36,576 nt of DNA from Ruminococcus sp. (GTDB taxonomy: Bacteria > Bacillota > Clostridia > Oscillospirales > Acutalibacteraceae). Position 1 is the first letter of the stretch. Every line of letters begins with the position of its first letter. Under the pieces are notes generated by a model. The model searched no databases, was not told the DNA's origin, and was given only the letters and a program-made list of their open reading frames with translations. Made by a program: the position numbers and the translations under genes. Shown in pieces: positions 3,579 to 29,603 of the stretch. The DNA is taken from NCBI GenBank assembly GCA_017481885.1, contig JAFUOM010000105.1, positions 1 through 36,576 on the forward strand, in the 5' to 3' direction.

Positions 3579-3607
3579 TTGACAACTCAAGTGCTCAAGA
3601 TTATAAT
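3579..3607 (+). promoter_or_regulatory. Consensus promoter of the aspS operon
   Basis: TTGACA (3579-3584), a 17-base spacer, and TATAAT (3602-3607): a perfect vegetative sigma-factor promoter. Transcription would start near 3614, at the foot of the T-box Stem I. Such a strong constitutive promoter fits control by attenuation downstream. Confidence 0.9.
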
Positions 3608-3610
3608 GTA

Positions 3611-3827
3611 CTAGTGAAGACTCGGCTTTTGTGGAAAGCCTTTAAGGGAGTGCACGTCAGCGACTGAAAGCGTGCTAAGGTGAGTAGTAAGTACGGGAAC
3701 ACTTCATAGCGTATACTCAAAACTTTATATAAAAGCGGATGCATTTTTGCATCAACACGGGTGGCACCGCGGGTTTTATCGTTTAACTCGTCCCGAGAAT
3801 AGGCATACTATTCTCGGGACTTTTTTT
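3611..3827 (+). promoter_or_regulatory. T-box riboswitch, probably Asn-responsive
   Basis: Senses uncharged tRNA and lets transcription continue into aspS-gatA-gatB. Stem I spans about 3611-3709, closed by CTAGTGAAG (3611-3619) with CTTCATAG (3702-3709). Stem III is GATGCA (3738-3743) with TGCATC (3748-3753). The conserved T-box GGGTGGCACCGCGGG is at 3759-3773. The terminator is a perfect 12-bp stem, 3790-3801 with 3809-3820, followed by seven T. On the 3' side of Stem I the sequence GGGAAC (3695-3700) offers AAC (Asn) as specifier, overlapping GAA (Glu). The AAC reading is an inference from position and from the downstream genes; the T-box itself is certain. Confidence 0.95.
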
Positions 3828-3830
3828 ATG

Positions 3831-3952
3831 CGCCGAGCACCGTAGCCCTCACAAAGTCGAAGTCGAGTCTGCCTTTTCGTAGTTGACAAGGTCAACGAAG
3901 AAAAAGGTGCGAGACTGTGGACTTTTGAGGAGTAGCGGAGGTGAACGAGGCG
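3831..3952. repeat. Long imperfect hairpin between T-box and aspS
   Basis: About 120 bases that fold back on themselves: CCTCACAAAGTC (3847-3858) with GACTTTTGAGG (3920-3930), an AGTCT/AGACT pair, and GTTGAC (3884-3889 region) with GTCAAC near the centre, plus matching outer ends CGCC and GGCG. It is more GC-rich than its surroundings, has no start codon in a useful frame, and sits between the T-box terminator and the aspS ribosome site. It could be a REP- or MITE-like insertion, or a second leader structure. Confidence 0.6.
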
Positions 3953-4013
3953 TGATATCGCTGTCGCAGACCCACTAAATAATAAACAATCCTTAATGGG
4001 AGGTAATAAATTT

Positions 4014-6089
4014 ATGTACAGAACACTATTTTGTAACGACATACGTGAGAGTCACGTTGGCTCTACTGTAAGTCTTGCTGGCTGGGTTGACGTTATCCGT
4101 GACCACGGTGGCGTTATCTTCGTAGACCTCAGAGACTACACAGGTATCACACAGGTTGTCGTTCACGACGAAAAATTACTCGAAAATGTAAACCGTGAAA
4201 CTGTTATTTCAGTCACAGGCGTTGTTGAAAAGCGTGACCCGGAGACAGTTAACGAAAAGATTGCAACAGGTGACGTTGAGCTTGTTGCATGTACTCTTAC
4301 AGTGCTTGGCAGAAGCACAAATATGCTTCCGTTTGAAGTTTCAAACTCACGAGCTTCTAAAGACGAAATCCGTCTTAAGTACCGTTACCTTGATTTAAGA
4401 AACCCTAAGAACCACAACAATCTCGTTATGCGTTCAAAGATTATCCGTCATCTGCGTAACAAAATGGAAGAGAAAAACTTCCTTGATATGCAGACACCAA
4501 TCCTCACTGCATCTTCTCCAGAGGGTGCTCGTGACTTCTTAGTACCATCACGTAAGCATCCTGGCAAATTTTACGCTTTGCCACAGGCTCCACAGCAGTT
4601 CAAGCAGTTACTTATGGTATCAGGCTTTGACCGTTACTTCCAGGTAGCTCCGTGTTTCAGAGATGAAGACGCTCGTGCTGACCGTTCCCCTGGTGAGTTT
4701 TACCAGCTCGACTTTGAAATGGCTTTTGCTACACAGGAAGAAGTGCTCGACGTTTGCGAGGACGTAATCTACGATACATTCAAAACTTTCTCAGACAAGA
4801 AAGTTACTCCTAAGCCTTTCCGTCGTATCACATACGCTGACGCTATGATGACATACGGCTCAGATAAACCGGATTTACGCAACCCACTGACAATCTGCGA
4901 CTTAACAGACTTCTTCGCAAATGTTGCTTTCCCTGCATTCAAAGGCAAGCCGGTACGTGGTATCGTTGCTAACTGTCAGGGCAAATCTAAGAAGTTCTTT
5001 GAAGACTCTTTAAAGTACGCTACATCAACAGAAGTAGGTCTTGGCGGTCTTGGTTACATCACTTTAAAAGAAGGCGTGTTCGCAGGTCCTATCGCTAAGT
5101 TCTTGTCTGACGAGCAGAAAGTTGAAATTACAGAGCTTACAGGCGTTAAAGAGGGCGAAACACTCTTCTTCATCTGTGACGACAAGAAAAACGACACAGA
5201 GAAAAAGGCTGGTCACATTCGTACATGGCTTGCACAGCCTACTCAGCTTGACTTAATCAGAGATGACTCGTTTGAGTTCTGCTTCGTTGTTGACTTCCCT
5301 ATGTTCGAAGAAGACGAAGAAACAGGCGAAACAATCTTTACTCACAACCCATTCTCTATGCCACAGGGCGGTATGGAGTCACTTCTTACAAAGAAGCCTG
5401 AAGAAGTTCTTGCTTACCAGTATGACCTTGTTTGTAACGGTATCGAGCTTGCATCTGGTGCTGTTCGAAACCACGATATTGAGATTATGAAAAAAGCGTT
5501 TGAAATCGCAGGCTACGAAGAGAGTGAGCTCAAAAAGCGTTTCAACGCACTTTACACAGCGTTCCAGTACGGTGCACCACCACACGCAGGTATGGCTCCT
5601 GGTATCGATCGTATGGTTATGCTCCTTACAGACGAAGAAAAGATTTTAGACGTAATTGCATTCCCATTAAACGGTAACGCTCAGGATTTACTCTTAGGTG
5701 CTCCTTCTGAAGTTACTGACCAGCAGCTTGAAGACGTTCACCTTCTTGGCAACGGCTCTGCTTTAGCTCACAGAGGTGCAAAGACTTCTGCAAAGGGTGG
5801 CACAGCAAACAAGCGTTCAACATTCTCAAACACTCAGCAGTTAAACCAGCTTTCTCTTACTGACGAAGAAGAGACAGTAATGCAGGGCATTTTTGACTCA
5901 ATGAAAAAGAGCGAAGAAGCTTTAAAAGCTGTTGATACAGAAAACACAGAGCCTATGGTTCACGTTATGGAAATGACAAACGTTCTTCGTGAAGACAAAC
6001 GTGTTCAGCCGTTTACTCGTGAGAGCTTGCTCGAGTCAGCTCCACAGCGAAGCGACGACTCTTGGGTTGTTCCACGACTTGTAAAGTGA
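4014..6089 (+). CDS. aspS-gatC: Aspartyl-tRNA synthetase fused to GatC
   Basis: A 691-residue fusion. Residues 1 to about 578 are a complete bacterial-type AspRS: OB-fold anticodon domain (GWVDVIRDHGG), catalytic core with motif 2 (FRDEDARADR), inserted GAD domain, and motif 3 (GAPPHAGMAPGIDRMVMLL). His31 sits where non-discriminating bacterial AspRSs carry His and discriminating ones Leu, so it probably charges both tRNA(Asp) and tRNA(Asn). After a Gly/Ser/Lys linker (about 579-604), residues 605-691 match GatC: LSLTDEEE, VDTENTEPMVHV, NVLREDK, LLESAP and the end VVPRLVK. No separate gatC is present. The ATG at 4014 has GGGAGG 10 bases upstream; an in-frame ATG at 3996 overlaps that site. 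gatA follows 10 bases after the stop. Confidence 0.95.
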   Translation: MYRTLFCNDIRESHVGSTVSLAGWVDVIRDHGGVIFVDLRDYTGITQVVVHDEKLLENVNRETVISVTGVVEKRDPETVNEKIATGDVELVACTLTVLGRSTNMLPFEVSNSRASKDEIRLKYRYLDLRNPKNHNNLVMRSKIIRHLRNKMEEKNFLDMQTPILTASSPEGARDFLVPSRKHPGKFYALPQAPQQFKQLLMVSGFDRYFQVAPCFRDEDARADRSPGEFYQLDFEMAFATQEEVLDVCEDVIYDTFKTFSDKKVTPKPFRRITYADAMMTYGSDKPDLRNPLTICDLTDFFANVAFPAFKGKPVRGIVANCQGKSKKFFEDSLKYATSTEVGLGGLGYITLKEGVFAGPIAKFLSDEQKVEITELTGVKEGETLFFICDDKKNDTEKKAGHIRTWLAQPTQLDLIRDDSFEFCFVVDFPMFEEDEETGETIFTHNPFSMPQGGMESLLTKKPEEVLAYQYDLVCNGIELASGAVRNHDIEIMKKAFEIAGYEESELKKRFNALYTAFQYGAPPHAGMAPGIDRMVMLLTDEEKILDVIAFPLNGNAQDLLLGAPSEVTDQQLEDVHLLGNGSALAHRGAKTSAKGGTANKRSTFSNTQQLNQLSLTDEEETVMQGIFDSMKKSEEALKAVDTENTEPMVHVMEMTNVLREDKRVQPFTRESLLESAPQRSDDSWVVPRLVK

Positions 6090-6099
6090 GGTGTGTAAG

Positions 6100-7290
6100 A
6101 TGAAATATTATATGGTTAAATTTTCAGACAAAGGAACCATCGCAGTAGATGATACTATCCTTGTAAAAGGCGAGCTCTCCTGTGCAGGTTCACATATATT
6201 AGACGGTTACAAACCGCTTTTCTCAGCAGAAGCTGTTGAGAGATTAATCGCTAAAGGATACGAAATCGCAGGCAAAACTAATGTTGGTGAATTCTCACTT
6301 GATTTAGTTGGCGAGTTTTCATACTACAACGAGCTTGAAGATGGCGAAACACTCAAAGGTGCTGCCGCTGAGCTTGTAAAAAGTGGTGAAGTTAAAGCCG
6401 CTTTAGGTGTTGATATGAACGGTTCAACACGACGTGCTGCTGCTTTATCAGGTGTAGCTTTCCTAAAGCCAACATACGGCACAGTTTCACGTTACGGCGT
6501 TATCTCCTGTGCGGCAAGTGGCGAACAGCTCGGTGTTTACGCAAAGGATGCTGACGCAGTAGCTGAGATTATGACAGTTATCGCTGGTAACGATAAAAAA
6601 GACGGCACATCTTTAAGAAACGAGTCATACACATATAACACTAACGACGATGTTAAGGGTGCAAAAGTTTGCGTCGTAAAGGAGCTTTTTGACAAAGCTG
6701 ACGATACTGTAAAAGCTAACATCACTTCATACGCACAGTCACTCAAAGCTCAGGGCGTTGAGGTTGAAGAAATCTCCCTTGACTTTGTTGACATCGCTAA
6801 CACAGCGTGGCAGATTCTTATGTGTGCAGAAACCTGCAACAACGTTTCACGTTACGACGGCGTTAAATACGGCCACCGTAGCGAAAACTATAGAAACATC
6901 GACGAGCTGTACGTAAATTCACGTACAGAGGGCTTCAACTTCCTCACAAAGGCAGTTATCCTCTACGGCTCAGACGTACTTTCAAAGCACCGTTACGCTG
7001 ACTGCTACGACAAGGCTCTTAGAATCAGACGTCAGGTAGCTGATAAAATGAAAGAATTATTCTCTAAATACACTGCTGTGCTCACTCCTGCTTGTAGTAA
7101 AACAGAGTACGCACAGTACGATATCAAAGATGCTTTCACAAAAGTATTCGAAGAAAGCGTATTCACAGCAATCCCTAACCTTGTTGGTACACCTGCACTT
7201 GTTTCAAACGGTGTTCAGCTTATGGGTAATCATTTTGATGAGAGCAAGTTACTCTCAATTGCTAAAACCGTGGAAAGGAAAGGTGAATAA
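6100..7290 (+). CDS. gatA: GatA-like subunit, glutaminase site degenerate
   Basis: By position and homology the A subunit of Asp-tRNA(Asn) amidotransferase, which normally hydrolyses glutamine and passes ammonia to GatB. Conserved: GKTNVGEFS, LKPTYGTVSRYG, RYDGVKYGHR, SRTEGF, and NHFDES near the end. Departures: 396 residues against about 485 in the family, with roughly 65 missing at the N terminus; the catalytic Lys of VKDNI is Asp17 (IAVDDTI); the glycine/serine loop GGSSGGS holding the cis-Ser is replaced by ETLKGAA; only the nucleophile Ser (NGSTR) remains. The frame is intact and the ATG at 6100 has GAGG 8 bases upstream, just after the aspS stop, so this is not a sequencing truncation. 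It is probably structural, or uses another nitrogen source. GTG at 6091 is a less likely start. Confidence 0.88.
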   Translation: MKYYMVKFSDKGTIAVDDTILVKGELSCAGSHILDGYKPLFSAEAVERLIAKGYEIAGKTNVGEFSLDLVGEFSYYNELEDGETLKGAAAELVKSGEVKAALGVDMNGSTRRAAALSGVAFLKPTYGTVSRYGVISCAASGEQLGVYAKDADAVAEIMTVIAGNDKKDGTSLRNESYTYNTNDDVKGAKVCVVKELFDKADDTVKANITSYAQSLKAQGVEVEEISLDFVDIANTAWQILMCAETCNNVSRYDGVKYGHRSENYRNIDELYVNSRTEGFNFLTKAVILYGSDVLSKHRYADCYDKALRIRRQVADKMKELFSKYTAVLTPACSKTEYAQYDIKDAFTKVFEESVFTAIPNLVGTPALVSNGVQLMGNHFDESKLLSIAKTVERKGE

Positions 7291-7292
7291 TT

Positions 7293-8714
7293 ATGGCTTA
7301 TGAACTCGTAATCGGCCTTGAAACCCACGTTGAATTAAATACAGAGTCTAAAATTTTCTGTTCTTGTGGTGGACACTCTTCCCCTATTGAGCCTAACGAC
7401 TGCGTGTGTCCTGCGTGTGCAGGTATGCCTGGTATGCTCCCTGTTATGAACAAGCGTGTTGTAGAGCTAGCAGCCACTGCAGGTCTTATGCTCAACTGCG
7501 AGATTAACCGCTACACAACATTTGACAAGAAAAACTACTACTATCCTGACCTTCCTTGTGCTTACCAGATTACACAGCTCAACCACCCAATCTGTGTTAA
7601 CGGCTTAGTTAAAGTTAAGACAGCAGCTGGCGAGCGTGATATCAGAATCAAGCAGATTCATATGGAAGAAGATGCAGGTAAACTCGTTCACGGCGGTAAC
7701 TCATCTTACGTTGACTTCAACCGTACATCAGTTCCGCTTATCGAAATCGTTACTCAGCCAGATTTCCGTTCACCTGAAGAAGTTGTAACTTACCTTGGCA
7801 AATTAAAGTCAATGTTCAAGTCAACCGGTATCTCAGAGTGCGAAGAAGGTGCTATGCGTTGCGACGTTAACATTTCAGTGCGTGAAGAAGGTACTGAAGA
7901 ATTCGGCGTTCGTACAGAGATTAAGAATATGGCTTCATTTGAGGCTATCGACCGTGCTATCCGTTACGAGGCACAGCGTCATATGGATGCTCTTGAATTC
8001 GGCACAGAAGAGCTTGTTCAGGAAACACGCCGTTTCGACGACGTAACTGGCAAAACATCAGCTATGCGTAACAAAGAGACAGAAGCTGACTATCGCTACT
8101 TCCCAGACCCTAACTTAATGCCAATCGTAATTGACGACGAGTGGCTCGAGCAGATTAAGGCTAACAAGCCTGTAGCACTCGACGAAAAGGCTGAGGCATA
8201 CTCAGAGATGGGCATTTCCGACAAGGAAATCGCAATGCTCATGAGCGAGCACACAGTTGCAAAACTCCTTGACGACGTAATCGCTCTTGGTTGCAACGGT
8301 AAGGACGCAGCAGCGTGGATTTTGACCGACTGTGCTGGTATTTTACGTAAAGCAGGCTTAAAGCTCAAGGATTTAGCTATCACAGCAGACGGCCTCTCAT
8401 TCCTCATCAAGAAAGTTGAAGAAGGCAAGTTAAACCGTGGTGCCGCTAAGAAAACTCTCATCGCTGTAATTGAGCAGGGTGCTGACCCAGTAGCTTACTG
8501 TGATGAGCAGGGCTTCCTTGTTGAAGTTGACTCATCTATGATTGAGTCAGTTATCGACAAGGCGATTGAGTCTAACCCACAGGCAGTTGCAGACTACAAG
8601 TCAGGCAAAGAAAAGGCATTAATGGCAATTTTCGGTGCTTGTATGAAAGAATTAAAAGGTAGCGGTGACCCAGGCCAAATCCGCACAATGCTTATCGAAA
8701 AACTCAAAAACTAA
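7293..8714 (+). CDS. gatB: Asp-tRNA(Asn)/Glu-tRNA(Gln) amidotransferase subunit B
   Basis: The ATP-dependent subunit that phosphorylates the Asp (or Glu) on mischarged tRNA and replaces it with an amide. At 473 residues it is full length. Visible features: IGLETHVELNT with Glu10, the zinc site C23-x-C25 and C39-x2-C42, NYYYPDLPCAYQITQ, EDAGKLVH, DFNRTSVPLIEIVT, RCDVNISVR, TEIKNMASFEAI, DYRYFPDPNL, and the helical YqeY-like tail that contacts tRNA (ends ...IRTMLIEKLKN). Nothing looks degenerate, in contrast to the GatA-like neighbour. It starts 3 bases after the gatA stop with AGGTGA just upstream. It closes the aspS-gatC/gatA/gatB operon. Confidence 0.96.
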   Translation: MAYELVIGLETHVELNTESKIFCSCGGHSSPIEPNDCVCPACAGMPGMLPVMNKRVVELAATAGLMLNCEINRYTTFDKKNYYYPDLPCAYQITQLNHPICVNGLVKVKTAAGERDIRIKQIHMEEDAGKLVHGGNSSYVDFNRTSVPLIEIVTQPDFRSPEEVVTYLGKLKSMFKSTGISECEEGAMRCDVNISVREEGTEEFGVRTEIKNMASFEAIDRAIRYEAQRHMDALEFGTEELVQETRRFDDVTGKTSAMRNKETEADYRYFPDPNLMPIVIDDEWLEQIKANKPVALDEKAEAYSEMGISDKEIAMLMSEHTVAKLLDDVIALGCNGKDAAAWILTDCAGILRKAGLKLKDLAITADGLSFLIKKVEEGKLNRGAAKKTLIAVIEQGADPVAYCDEQGFLVEVDSSMIESVIDKAIESNPQAVADYKSGKEKALMAIFGACMKELKGSGDPGQIRTMLIEKLKN

Positions 8715-8720
8715 AATATA

Positions 8721-8752
8721 CAGGACCGCTGAAACTCGGCGGTCCTGCTTAT
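8721..8752 (+). terminator. Putative terminator of the aspS operon
   Basis: CAGGACCGC (8721-8729) pairs perfectly with GCGGTCCTG (8739-8747) around a 9-base loop. The T tract that follows is weak (CTTATTATC), so some readthrough into the editing protein gene is possible. Confidence 0.6.
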
Positions 8753-8777
8753 TATCACTACAAAAAAGGTGAAACAT

Positions 8778-9920
8778 ATGACAATAAAATTATACGAAAA
8801 TGATTCTTACATAAAGGAATTCGACGCAACGGTCCTTTCGTGCGATGAGTGCAAAAACGGCTATCTTATAACCCTTGATAAAACAGCGTTCTTCCCTGAG
8901 GGTGGCGGACAGCAAGCCGACAAAGGCACTATAAACGACATTGATGTCCTCGATGTTCAGATTAAAAACGAAGTGATAACCCACAAGGTCGAAAAGCCGT
9001 TTGAAGTTGGCACAACTGTCAGCTGTAAAATCGACTGGGACACACGTTTCAGAAGAATGCAGGGTCACACTGGTGAGCATTTGGTGTCAGGTATTATCCA
9101 CACTCTGTTTGGTTACGACAACCTCGGCTTTCATATGAGCGAAAAAACAATGACGCTTGACCCTAGCGGAATGTTAACCCCTGACGACATTAAAGAGGTT
9201 GAAAGACGAGCTAATATGGCGGTGTATGAAAACCGTGACATTGTCGTGTCCTACCCTGCTCCTGACAAGCTAAAGGAAATCGACTATCGTAGCAAGCTTG
9301 ATTTAGAAGAAGGCGTGCGTTTAGTTACAATTGACGGCTACGACACCTGTGCGTGCTGTGCACCACATGTTAAAAAAACAGGCGAAATCGGACTAGTTAA
9401 GATTATCGACTTCATCCAGTACAAAGGCGGTATGCGACTAACTATGGTATGTGGTATGAACGCCTTTGAGGATTACTCAGCTTTACACGATGACGCAAAA
9501 AAGATGATGAACCTGCTTTCTTCCCCTAGAGAAAAGGTGCTCGAGTTTGTAGTAAAAGACCACGAAACAATCGGTACTATGAAAGCCGAAATCAACCGCT
9601 TGAACGCAGAGCTGTCAAAAGCAAACCTCGAAATCGTAACAGTGTCAAACACTCTGTGCGGTTTTACAAAGGGTGCTTCATTTGATGATATGCGTGCACT
9701 TGTAAACGATAACCTCGACAAAGCTAAGCTTGTTGCATTTTTCAGCGAGGGTGACAACGGCGACTACTCCTACATTATTTCAAGTGCAACTCTTGACGTG
9801 CGTGATACCGTCAAAGCCTTAAATGCTGAGTTTAATGGCAAAGGTGGCGGTCGTCCAAACTACGCTCAGGGCAAACTCTCAGCCACAAAAGAGGACATCG
9901 TTTCATACTTCGAAAAATAA
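8778..9920 (+). CDS. AlaX-type alanyl-tRNA editing protein with DHHA1 domain
   Basis: Removes wrongly attached amino acids (typically Ser or Gly) from tRNA(Ala). The 380-residue protein has the AlaRS editing core: FFPEGGGQQADKG (38-50), the zinc-binding HTGEH (His97 and His101) and CCAPH (Cys193 and His197), a coiled helical stretch at about 255-290, then a C-terminal DHHA1 domain ending with GGGRPNYAQG. It lacks the AlaRS aminoacylation domain, so it is the long free-standing AlaX form. The ATG at 8778 has AAAGGTG 6-7 bases upstream; a GTG three codons earlier overlaps that site. Its place behind the aspS operon may be chance or may reflect shared use in translation quality control. Confidence 0.9.
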   Translation: MTIKLYENDSYIKEFDATVLSCDECKNGYLITLDKTAFFPEGGGQQADKGTINDIDVLDVQIKNEVITHKVEKPFEVGTTVSCKIDWDTRFRRMQGHTGEHLVSGIIHTLFGYDNLGFHMSEKTMTLDPSGMLTPDDIKEVERRANMAVYENRDIVVSYPAPDKLKEIDYRSKLDLEEGVRLVTIDGYDTCACCAPHVKKTGEIGLVKIIDFIQYKGGMRLTMVCGMNAFEDYSALHDDAKKMMNLLSSPREKVLEFVVKDHETIGTMKAEINRLNAELSKANLEIVTVSNTLCGFTKGASFDDMRALVNDNLDKAKLVAFFSEGDNGDYSYIISSATLDVRDTVKALNAEFNGKGGGRPNYAQGKLSATKEDIVSYFEK

Positions 9921-15141: not shown

Positions 15142-15185
15142 CATTGATTATATTTTGAAAACAATTAAAAATTATAAAAACCCTC

Positions 15186-15214
15186 TTGCATACCTCTTTT
15201 TGCAATGTTACAAT
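15186..15214 (+). promoter_or_regulatory. Promoter of the dockerin-esterase gene
   Basis: TTGCAT (15186-15191), a 17-base spacer and TACAAT (15209-15214); start expected near 15221, with GGAGG at 15239-15243 before the ATG. Confidence 0.65.
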
Positions 15215-15250
15215 CAAATTGTAAGCACTATATTAATCGGAGGTTATGCT

Positions 15251-16687
15251 ATGCGTTCATCAAGATTTTTTGCCTTGTTAACAGTTTTGTCGCTACTTAT
15301 AACAATGACGTTCACGTGTGCTTGCGAAAGCACATCGATTGTCTACGGCGATGTGGATTTGGATTCAAACGTAACAATTATGGATGCAACCACAATCCAG
15401 CAAGCCCTTGCAAAAATTATCACGCTCGAAAAAGAGCAGGAAAAGTGCGCCCTTGTAACAGGTAACGACGATGTGTCCATTATGGACGCAACATTAATCC
15501 AGCAGTATATTGCAAAAATTATTGACAAATTCCCTGTGGAGGACAGCAACGTGACTGATAAAGAAACAATCAACAAAATCGATACAAACATCACTGTTCA
15601 TTTTTCAAACAACAAAAAGTGGACAACCGTGTACGCATACATCTACAATGAGCAAACAGGAAAAACAAATGCTACCTGGCCTGGCGAAAAGCTTACAAAC
15701 GGCACAGTAAATTCTTACGGCGAGACTGTGTACGCAATTGATGTGGATTGCTCAAAATTTAACCGAATCATCTTTTCAAACGGTACAGACCAGACCTCTG
15801 ACAATCCGCTGAGCGTTACAAACTCAGGGTATTTTGTCCAAACAAAGCTCAACGGCAAGTATGTCGCAGGTGTGTATCCTTACGCTCAGGACAACGAGGG
15901 CACATTAAAATACGTTGACCTTGAATACGCAGAAGGCTACAACAAGGAGATTACAATCTGGACACCTGTTGGCTATGACGCAAAAGATAAAGACAAAAAA
16001 TACTCCGTGCTTTATATGACAGATGGTCAAAACCTGTTTGGCGACAAATCCACATTGTCAGGCTACGAATGGGAAGTTGACGAAACGGTGCTTTCATATA
16101 TGCAAAACGGCGGTGACGGCATCATTGTTGTCGGCATTGACAACTCAAACTCAAAGCGTGATAGTGAGCTCACTCCTGATTTAGGTGACATTGTACCTGA
16201 GTACAACTACGGCGGTTTCAAAAGCGGCACAGGCAAAGAGTACTCAGACTTTGTTGTAAACACTGTTATCCCATACATCGAAGCAAATTACAACACAAAC
16301 TCAATCCGTGGTATTGCAGGCTCGTCAAGTGGCGGTATCGAAGCATTCTACATCGGTATGGAACACAAGGACAAGTTCTCCTACATAGGAGCGCTCTCCC
16401 CTGCATTCTTGCTTTACGACGAGTCCACTTGGGACAACTACTTAAGCACACTTGATTTTTCAGACAAAGACGCTCTTCCACGAGTTTACATCCACAACGG
16501 CAACAGCGAAGCGGATGCTTTAGAGCAGGAGCTCTACCCTAACGCCGCAGCAATGCAAGGCTTCTTGGAAGAAAAAGGCTACCCGTCAGAACTTATCAAA
16601 ACCGTTATTGACAAAGACGGCACCCACAACGAGCTTTTCTGGGCAGTGTGGTTCCCTGAAGCTTTAGCATTCGGTTTGGGATATTAA
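15251..16687 (+). CDS. Surface esterase with dockerin and CBM26-like module
   Basis: A 478-residue exported protein. Residues 1-25 are a signal peptide, possibly a lipoprotein one (Cys25 after TCA). Residues 31-97 form a type I dockerin with two calcium-binding repeats (YGDVDLDSNVTIMDAT and GNDDVSIMDATLIQQ). Residues 113-212 resemble CBM26-type starch-binding modules (ITVHFSNNKKWTTVYAY, ATWPGEKL, IIFSNG). Residues 220-478 are an Esterase D/feruloyl-esterase-type alpha/beta hydrolase with GSSSG around Ser359, acidic residues near 419-424 and His459. The dockerin implies docking to a cohesin scaffold, as in amylosomes or cellulosomes; the ester substrate is unknown. The ATG at 15251 has GGAGG 7 bases upstream. 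A longer reading frame begins at 15155 but ignores that site and the signal peptide. Confidence 0.88.
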   Translation: MRSSRFFALLTVLSLLITMTFTCACESTSIVYGDVDLDSNVTIMDATTIQQALAKIITLEKEQEKCALVTGNDDVSIMDATLIQQYIAKIIDKFPVEDSNVTDKETINKIDTNITVHFSNNKKWTTVYAYIYNEQTGKTNATWPGEKLTNGTVNSYGETVYAIDVDCSKFNRIIFSNGTDQTSDNPLSVTNSGYFVQTKLNGKYVAGVYPYAQDNEGTLKYVDLEYAEGYNKEITIWTPVGYDAKDKDKKYSVLYMTDGQNLFGDKSTLSGYEWEVDETVLSYMQNGGDGIIVVGIDNSNSKRDSELTPDLGDIVPEYNYGGFKSGTGKEYSDFVVNTVIPYIEANYNTNSIRGIAGSSSGGIEAFYIGMEHKDKFSYIGALSPAFLLYDESTWDNYLSTLDFSDKDALPRVYIHNGNSEADALEQELYPNAAAMQGFLEEKGYPSELIKTVIDKDGTHNELFWAVWFPEALAFGLGY

Positions 16688-28676: not shown

Positions 28677-29603
28677 TTAACTTTCCAGCATCAGCTTCAT
28701 ATATGCACACGCAGGTGCCATATCATAAAGAAGCTTAACTCCTTTATCCATAATACTGCTCATTGAATAATAGTTGTCTTTGCCTGTTTTAAGACCACAA
28801 ATATACAGCGGTACGTTATCTTTTCTGCACTTTTCAATCAGCGTTGTGATGCAGTTGTTACTATTCCCTACCGCACAAACAGAACCTGCGTGATATGTGC
28901 GGTGAAGCACAGCATCTGCCCCTTTAACGTCAAGTCTGCTGTAATCCAAATCAGGGTATGGCATAACCTGCATAATTCTTTTATCGAAGTTTAAATTCGC
29001 TTTTTCAACATCAACACTATAAAGTGAGTTGCTCTCTTTATTCTTCACAATACTGCCGTTTTCAAAAACAGCATAAGCTCCACCCAAGGAGTAAAAATCA
29101 TCACTGAGCGTATCACTTTCAAAAAGCTCAACACCGTTGTGGATGTACACCTTGTTGTCACCATTGCGATACGGCACAAAAACTCCACACATACCATTTT
29201 TGATAATCTCAACAGCAACGCAGAAATTGTCCATCCCGTTTGATTTTTCATCCTGCAGGGATTTGTCAGCCGCAACAACGCACACAGGTTTGTTGATATT
29301 TGAAAACAGAATTCCAAGCAGAGCCGATGTATACGCAAGCGTATCTGACCCGTGAGTCACAATAACACCATCGTAAAGGCTCGTATCAATATTTTTAAAC
29401 GCTTCAACTATAGCTTTGTAGTCAGTCAGCTGTACATTTTCGCTCAGAATATTAACAGGCGACACAACCTCAAACTCAGTGTCTTTGTCAATCTCCTTGT
29501 ACTTTTTGAGCACCAGAAGTTTGCCCTGCGGTGTAACATCAATCACACCATCATCAATGATACTTGCGATAGTTCCGCCTGTAGTAAAAAGTAAAATCTT
29601 CAT
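28677..29603 (-). CDS. L-asparaginase
   Basis: Hydrolyses asparagine to aspartate and ammonia. The 308-residue cytoplasmic protein (no signal peptide) has both family signatures: FTTGGTIAS (6-14) with the nucleophile Thr, and VTHGSDTLAYTS (82-93). In the second, the usual THGTDT is THGSDT, a conservative Thr to Ser change at a catalytic residue. The region of the third catalytic residue (a Lys in E. coli) also differs (AADKSLQDEKSNG). The active site is mostly kept but altered, so activity on Asn versus Gln is uncertain. The transporter gene follows at once. The ribosome site is weak (GGTGA). Confidence 0.87.
   Translation of the reverse strand: MKILLFTTGGTIASIIDDGVIDVTPQGKLLVLKKYKEIDKDTEFEVVSPVNILSENVQLTDYKAIVEAFKNIDTSLYDGVIVTHGSDTLAYTSALLGILFSNINKPVCVVAADKSLQDEKSNGMDNFCVAVEIIKNGMCGVFVPYRNGDNKVYIHNGVELFESDTLSDDFYSLGGAYAVFENGSIVKNKESNSLYSVDVEKANLNFDKRIMQVMPYPDLDYSRLDVKGADAVLHRTYHAGSVCAVGNSNNCITTLIEKCRKDNVPLYICGLKTGKDNYYSMSSIMDKGVKLLYDMAPACAYMKLMLES

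Follow-up and report, generated by a model that had tools for sequence, protein, structure and literature searches.

The operon and its genes

We analysed a 36,576-nucleotide stretch of Ruminococcus sp. DNA (contig JAFUOM010000105.1), called the window below, from a genome of 1.94 Mb that is 88% complete. On its forward strand the window carries, in an almost gapless order, an aspS-gatC fusion, a short gatA-like gene, gatB and an AlaX-like gene. The relevant features are the following.

3602..3798, + strand: T-box leader with AAC (Asn) at the presumed specifier and the T-box bulge TGGC (RF00230, 43.3 bits)
3790..3827, + strand: intrinsic terminator of the T-box, a 13-bp hairpin plus T run (from the fold of 3736-3832)
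3996..6089, + strand: aspS-gatC fusion, GatC being residues 608-696 (NF001750, TIGR00135)
6091..7290, + strand: gatA*, GatA-like subunit predicted to lack a glutaminase site (TIGR00132, PF01425, residue alignments)
7293..8714, + strand: gatB, transamidase subunit, with the codon of C89 at 7557-7559 (TIGR00133, 487 bits)
8769..9920, + strand: gene for an AlaX-like editing protein, 3' of gatB (match to AlaXM/AlaS editing region)
28677..29603, - strand: asparaginase-family (PF00710) gene, the sole copy found in the window genome

The AspRS part of the fusion matched the aspartate--tRNA ligase model NF001750 with 748 bits, above the NCBIfam cut-off, and the GatC fused to it matched the gatC model TIGR00135 with 61.5 bits against a cut-off of 47.1. 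The gatA* reading frame (6091-7290, + strand) starts with GTG and encodes 399 amino acids. The gene at 8769-9920 is of the alanyl-tRNA editing type (AlaX-like) and here accompanies an operon of the Asn pathway; a relative was present in 22 of the 35 named loci examined, some of which stop short of that place.

We use the name GatA* for the short GatA-like protein of the window and its clade relatives. The relatives were collected from three sources: 36 loci from named GTDB-species records, 150 scanned genomes from the window's family, 13 of which (the window's own included) carry GatA*, and a GatB pattern search that added 6 genomes of other families. Duplicates were counted once (L067 and G056 are one contig, as are L063 and G264), which left 53 genomes and 53 distinct GatA* rows, the window included. 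The catalytic columns of these rows were compared with 19 canonical rows from within the window's family and with 4 rows of a second form, 'A2', described below. Residue numbers follow S. aureus GatA and were counted by hand on an alignment of PDB sequences. Routes to Asn-tRNA were surveyed in 28 genomes, comprising 13 with GatA*, 9 with canonical GatB only and 6 without GatB.

Residues of the glutaminase site in GatA*

GatA* belongs to the amidase signature family by its core domain, which matched PF01425 with 188.2 bits (cut-off 27) over profile positions 52-445. Against the gatA model TIGR00132, a comparison that the earlier note had proposed as a check, it reached 271 bits, below the curated cut-off of 481.1, with the match beginning at profile position 62. 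Alignment to six bacterial GatA chains starts at their residues 63-77, which agrees with the initial estimate that about 65 N-terminal residues are absent.

Residue by residue, the catalytic Lys79 of S. aureus GatA corresponds to Asp20 of the window protein, which is the Asp17 that the earlier note had placed there when counting from an ATG instead of the GTG. The cis-Ser loop GGSSGG reads ETLKGA, as had also been noticed, and L88 replaces cis-Ser154. The late-segment Asp that had been seen to read Ser is the Gln-binding Asp425, now Ser356. In addition, Val289 takes the place of Arg358, which corresponds to the Arg that binds the carboxylate in yeast GatA; this change was missing from the earlier list. 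PMC4027206 identifies the residues of the yeast protein that have these roles.

The same losses were found in all 53 distinct rows when related genomes were searched for them. The Lys79 column holds Asp in 51 GatA* rows and Glu in one, with a gap in the remaining one, a partial gene, whereas all 19 canonical rows have Lys. At cis-Ser154 the clade reads Leu 48, Ile 4 and Glu 1 against Ser in 19/19 canonical rows. Asp425 is retained in 0/53 GatA* rows versus 18/19 canonical ones, and Arg358 in 0/53 versus 19/19. The nucleophile Ser had been described as the only remnant of the site; this holds for the window, where Ser178 is Ser112, but not for the clade, in which the column reads Ala 29, Ser 21 and Thr 3 (canonical Ser 19/19). 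Thus, of the Ser-cisSer-Lys triad that characterizes TIGR00132, Lys and cis-Ser occur in none of the 53 rows and the nucleophile Ser in 21. On a quick tree of 52 rows, the nucleophile column switches between Ser and other residues no fewer than 13 times, which is expected if this position no longer matters. From these replacements, we consider the loss of glutaminase activity in the GatA* clade to be nearly certain.

Other positions have become fixed. N110, R115, E145 and Y292 are clade-specific and present in 53/53 rows, as is D20 in 51/53. Such residues show that GatA* is under a constraint of its own, and we regard the protein as a predicted pseudo-glutaminase that has been conserved.

Maintenance of gatA*

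The earlier note had argued from the intact reading frame that gatA* is under selection, and substitution rates support this argument. In six comparisons, each between the window and a close relative, dN/dS was 0.117-0.144 for gatA*; at this range it was 0.049-0.087 for aspS-gatC and 0.032-0.062 for gatB, on which constraint within the operon was strongest. Among these close relatives, gatA* evolves under purifying selection. A pseudogene or an assembly error is ruled out by the 53 distinct sequences that share the losses and by the dN/dS of 0.12-0.14.

The gene neighbourhood is equally constant. gatA* adjoins gatB on one strand in all 61 locus records, which represent the 53 genomes, and gatC, free or fused to AspRS, lies directly 5' of gatA* in all 60 records that cover it. 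Wherever the sequence extends that far, aspS is found within half a kilobase of gatA*, with the single exception of G014 (2.8 kb).

GatB and the position of Lys88

The window GatB matched TIGR00133 with 487 bits against a cut-off of 314.8. The gatB of the operon had been called normal, which is correct for the transamidase site: the key metal- and ATP-motif residues are present in the window protein, and those of the transamidase motifs do not vary across 45 rows linked to GatA*. It is not correct for the position of S. aureus Lys88, which is C89 in the window protein and Cys in 52 of the 53 GatA* genomes, with Gly in G056. When the five genomes known solely through the Cys pattern are set aside, the count is 47 of 48. 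Canonical GatB has Lys at this position in 18/18 cases (16 rows plus G071 and G074), as do the four bacterial PDB GatBs that were aligned. A search of 394 genomes of the order for the Cys-form pattern returned 7, from seven families, and gatA* was adjacent in 7/7.

In S. aureus GatCAB, Lys88 presumably helps to gate the ammonia channel, a role for which no support was found in the accessible text of PMC4027206 and PMC8406222. If the assignment is right, the loss of Lys88 fits a channel that has been freed from coupling to a glutaminase.

A second inactivated form

A further GatA of 445 amino acids, the A2 form, occurs in four genomes (G007, G012, G141 and G143; loci L092-L095) that also carry canonical GatA. 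Lys79, Asp425 and the cis-Ser loop are missing from it, whereas Ser178 and Arg358 remain. Its operon has the order AspRS-GatC-GatA-GatB and lacks a T-box core, and its GatB has Cys at Lys88 in 4/4 cases. In unrooted GatB trees the canonical sequences are separated from a branch of GatA*- plus A2-linked sequences with support of 99/98 and 100/100; given this support, one change at the Lys88 site suffices for both groups. Canonical, GatA* and A2 sequences form three separate groups on the unrooted trees of GatB and of GatA alike.

The asparagine T-box leader

The leader of the window operon was detected with RF00230 at 43.3 bits (E 1.6e-8 in a search of 341 bases), below the Rfam gathering score of 93. 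Its terminator region (3736-3832) folds with -38.8 kcal/mol (z -6.4) and has a T run. AAC aligns at the column that we take to be the specifier.

The arrangement recurs across the clade. A T-box core was found 5' of aspS in 45 of the 46 GatA* loci with an aspS motif, and the one locus without it, L039, has just 140 bases upstream of the motif in its sequence. The specifier reads AAC in 44 of the 45 loci with a core, or in 42 of 43 genomes after removal of two loci that are second copies of one genome. The T-boxes of L139 and L144 exceed the Rfam threshold, again with AAC aligned at the specifier. The leader of L047 shows no recognisable Stem I or specifier and keeps the core, 191 bases 5' of the aspS motif, and the terminator. 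The T-box of G056 (L105) reads AAC although this genome has AsnRS, and the G056 operon is predicted to be still wired to tRNA-Asn.

Six AspRS-linked operons that lack GatA* (four of the A2 type and two canonical) served for comparison; none of the six contains the T-box core, and none has a T-box above the Rfam threshold. The Asn T-box as an exclusive mark of GatA* is nevertheless ruled out by the canonical gatCAB operon of G004 (L101), which has a T-box with AAC at 6059-6274 (- strand). The leader is therefore best regarded as a predicted mark of an Asn pathway and not of GatA* as such. In L101 the T-box precedes a set of gatC, gatA, gatB and a gene for an AsnRS-like paralogue that adjoins gatB. 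Such a paralogue is also found beside gatB in G008 and G139, with 239-249 bits against the asnS model, below the cut-off.

AspRS type, tRNA-Asn and other routes to Asn-tRNA

The AspRS of the operon carries RDHGG in 15/15 rows, and the standalone AspRS of G000 and G075 has RDLG. RDHGG is presumably the motif of the non-discriminating AspRS type, and the motif suggests that the operon enzyme is non-discriminating.

Two nearly complete genomes are informative with respect to alternative routes. In G126 (97% complete) we found a single GatA-like gene, one AspRS and GlnRS, with no second GatA; AsnRS, AsnA and AsnB all remained below the cut-off in this genome. In G075 (96% complete) there was likewise no AsnRS over the cut-off and no other GatA, and AsnB is present. 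Free Asn cannot be charged where AsnRS is lacking, so that Asn-tRNA should come from the GatA* complex, and in some genomes the GatA* operon is apparently essential. Elsewhere, additional routes exist. AsnRS is also encoded in five GatA* genomes (G081, G145, G133, G014 and G056), where the complex is not the sole route, and canonical GatA is additionally present in G001, G014 and G036, which could use glutamine through their canonical complex. A GlnRS turned up in the window genome, as it did in 25 of the 27 others surveyed. AsnA was detected in 5 of the 6 genomes that lack GatB, in none of the 13 that carry GatA* and in none of the 9 whose only GatB is canonical.

Bacterial GatCAB recognises the U1-A72 pair of tRNA-Asn (PMC4206432). 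This pair is present in G126, G001 and G036, the three AsnRS-less GatA* genomes in which a tRNA-Asn was found, and in G287. The tRNA-Asn of three AsnRS-bearing GatA* genomes (G145, G133 and G056; loci L114, L124, L129 and L118) has G1-C72 and, on its sequence, is a misfit to the canonical U1-A72 rule. No tRNA-Asn was found by two patterns in the window genome, which is 88% complete.

A candidate mechanism

Our preferred reading, to which we assign a probability of roughly 0.7, is that these operons encode a tRNA-dependent Asn pathway that runs on free ammonia and in which a dead GatA* is retained as a scaffold. Uncharged tRNA-Asn would be sensed by the T-box leader, which would then allow expression of the operon. 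AspRS, which in the window is fused to GatC, would load aspartate onto tRNA-Asn, and GatB, held by GatC and GatA*, would activate the aspartyl group with ATP and amidate it to yield Asn-tRNA-Asn. GatA* would no longer hydrolyse glutamine and would instead support GatB and GatC structurally, and the amide nitrogen would be free ammonia that arrives at GatB through the remaining channel or directly.

With the glutaminase gone, free ammonia is the simplest donor, and it is probably the one used. Ruminant gut sites are rich in ammonia, and such a site is named in the title of 27 of the 36 named GatA* records. Ammonia can drive amidation in a related complex: yeast GatFAB, assayed with 20 mM NH4Cl as donor, amidates in vitro, and truncation of the piece of GatF that shapes the GatA site raised the NH4Cl-driven activity (PMC4027206). 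A private glutaminase within the operon was considered and set aside, since the recurring neighbours that could be identified were the AlaX-like gene (22/35) and an asparaginase-like gene; the latter is kept in the first of the alternatives below.

The clade-wide loss of residues, the purifying selection and the Asn-tRNA context of the operon make the new variant of the amidotransferase that the earlier note had suggested the best reading of these sequences. A more far-reaching version, which we put forward only tentatively, is that this is the first ammonia-only tRNA-dependent amidotransferase, with T-box control, a dead GatA as both scaffold and conduit and an ungated GatB, and that members without AsnRS are coupled to an asparaginase-like conversion of Asn to Asp and ammonia, so that all protein Asn would be rebuilt on tRNA.

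Alternative explanations

It is possible, and in our judgement unlikely, that a separate asparaginase-family enzyme hydrolyses Gln or Asn and hands the ammonia over, so that it replaces GatA as the glutaminase. PF00710-like genes do adjoin or neighbour many GatA* operons. They lie directly 3' of gatB on the same strand in L051, L052, L056, L057, G010 (L085), G172 (L142) and G489 (L140), and beside or near the operon in L040, L041, L054, L055, G075 (L100) and G287 (L139); the sole copy of the window genome lies in the window itself, 20 kb from the operon. Three of the proteins matched type I asparaginase (98, 98 and 84 bits) and GatD models (95, 85 and 75 bits), all below cut-off, but the first approximately 70 profile positions of GatD, its N-terminal part, had no match in the three. 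The gene is divergent, with one copy per genome where present, and the window copy reads HGSDT where relatives show HGTD. It is also not universal: it was not found in 7 of 19 GatA* genomes (G081, G145, G133, G014, G122, G056 and G159). Its presence follows the absence of AsnRS and not the presence of GatA*, with 12 of 13 AsnRS-less against 1 of 13 AsnRS-bearing genomes, canonical ones included; this tally covers 26 of the 28 surveyed genomes, which are related, so that the Fisher value of 3e-5 serves as a guide only. Such a distribution fits ordinary disposal of free Asn. The gene may supply Asp and ammonia, or it may just dispose of free Asn.

We consider it quite improbable that GatA* hydrolyses glutamine or another amide through a rebuilt active site. 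The old pocket region is constrained, as seen from N110, R115, E145 and D20, but these residues could just as well fill the old pocket. Lys and Ser are missing at the places where they are needed, no row retains the Asp or the Arg that bind Gln, and the nucleophile column drifts between Ser, Ala and Thr.

A complex that does not amidate, in which GatA* and GatB form a binding assembly for tRNA-Asn or AspRS or are vestigial, would explain why AsnRS and a G1-C72 tRNA-Asn coexist with GatA* in G145, G133 and G056. The invariance of the key GatB residues, together with a dN/dS of 0.03-0.06 that is the lowest of the operon among the window's close relatives, speaks against it, as does the failure to find any other Asn-tRNA route in G126 and G075, and we regard this explanation as very improbable.

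We give next to no weight to completion of the complex by a canonical GatA encoded elsewhere, since the second, canonical GatAs of G001, G014 and G036 each have their own GatB (and, as seen in G001 and G036, their own GatC), none was found in the other ten GatA* genomes of the family scan, the window's included (one PF01425 match in all in this 88%-complete genome), and in G126 and G075 such a gene is excluded unless it lies within their missing 3-4%.

Comparison with known systems

The ammonia-driven pathway proposed here resembles the bacterial GatCAB systems with a non-discriminating AspRS, as in S. aureus and B. bacteriovorus, in that AspRS, GatC, GatB and a GatA-like protein are encoded together, and with this bacterial Asn pathway it shares the U1-A72 tRNA-Asn in the AsnRS-less GatA* members where this tRNA was found. 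It differs from them in a GatA that lacks the triad, the Gln-binding residues and some 60 N-terminal residues, and in the Cys at Lys88 of GatB. T-box control of tRNA-dependent Asn amidation is in common with the AspRS/GatCAB of Clostridium acetobutylicum (Saad 2012, cited in PMC4206432).

To our knowledge, the GatA of the T-box operon in C. acetobutylicum has not been described as dead. Another parallel is NAD synthetase, a glutamine amidotransferase family that includes an ammonia-only short NadE (PMC3376133); short NadE drops the glutaminase domain entirely, whereas the GatA* operon keeps a dead subunit. For gatABC in 490 genomes, Table 1 of the same paper gives no arrangement without a glutaminase, while it does give a share for NadE.

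The archaeal GatDE is a tRNA-dependent amidotransferase in which an asparaginase-family protein, GatD, is the glutaminase. In the GatA* operons, by contrast, GatB and GatC are of the bacterial type, and the asparaginase-like proteins leave the N-terminal part of GatD unmatched and were not found in every genome (missing from 7/19). AsnA likewise makes Asn from Asp and ammonia, but it acts on free Asp and not on Asp-tRNA. Among the titles and opening parts of abstracts that our literature searches returned, we found no earlier report of a glutaminase-dead GatA.

GatCAB is the textbook example of an ammonia channel that couples a glutaminase to a transamidase. If the proposed reading is true, this coupling is dispensable, the glutaminase site having been erased in place and clade-wide in what is, in some members, the only route found. 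The GatA* complexes would then be a natural experiment on the roles of GatA beyond glutamine hydrolysis, and a core step of translation would be tied to free ammonia in ammonia-rich habitats. It would also follow that homology to GatA alone is no proof of glutamine dependence.

Other features near the operons

Two further elements were observed in the vicinity of GatA* operons. The window encodes at 15155-16687 (+ strand) a putative esterase that also carries a dockerin domain and the starch-binding module CBM26, possibly a part of a cellulosome or amylosome. In L060, a Gut-1 RNA (RF01706) lies at 8743-8819 (+ strand), directly after the GatA* operon.
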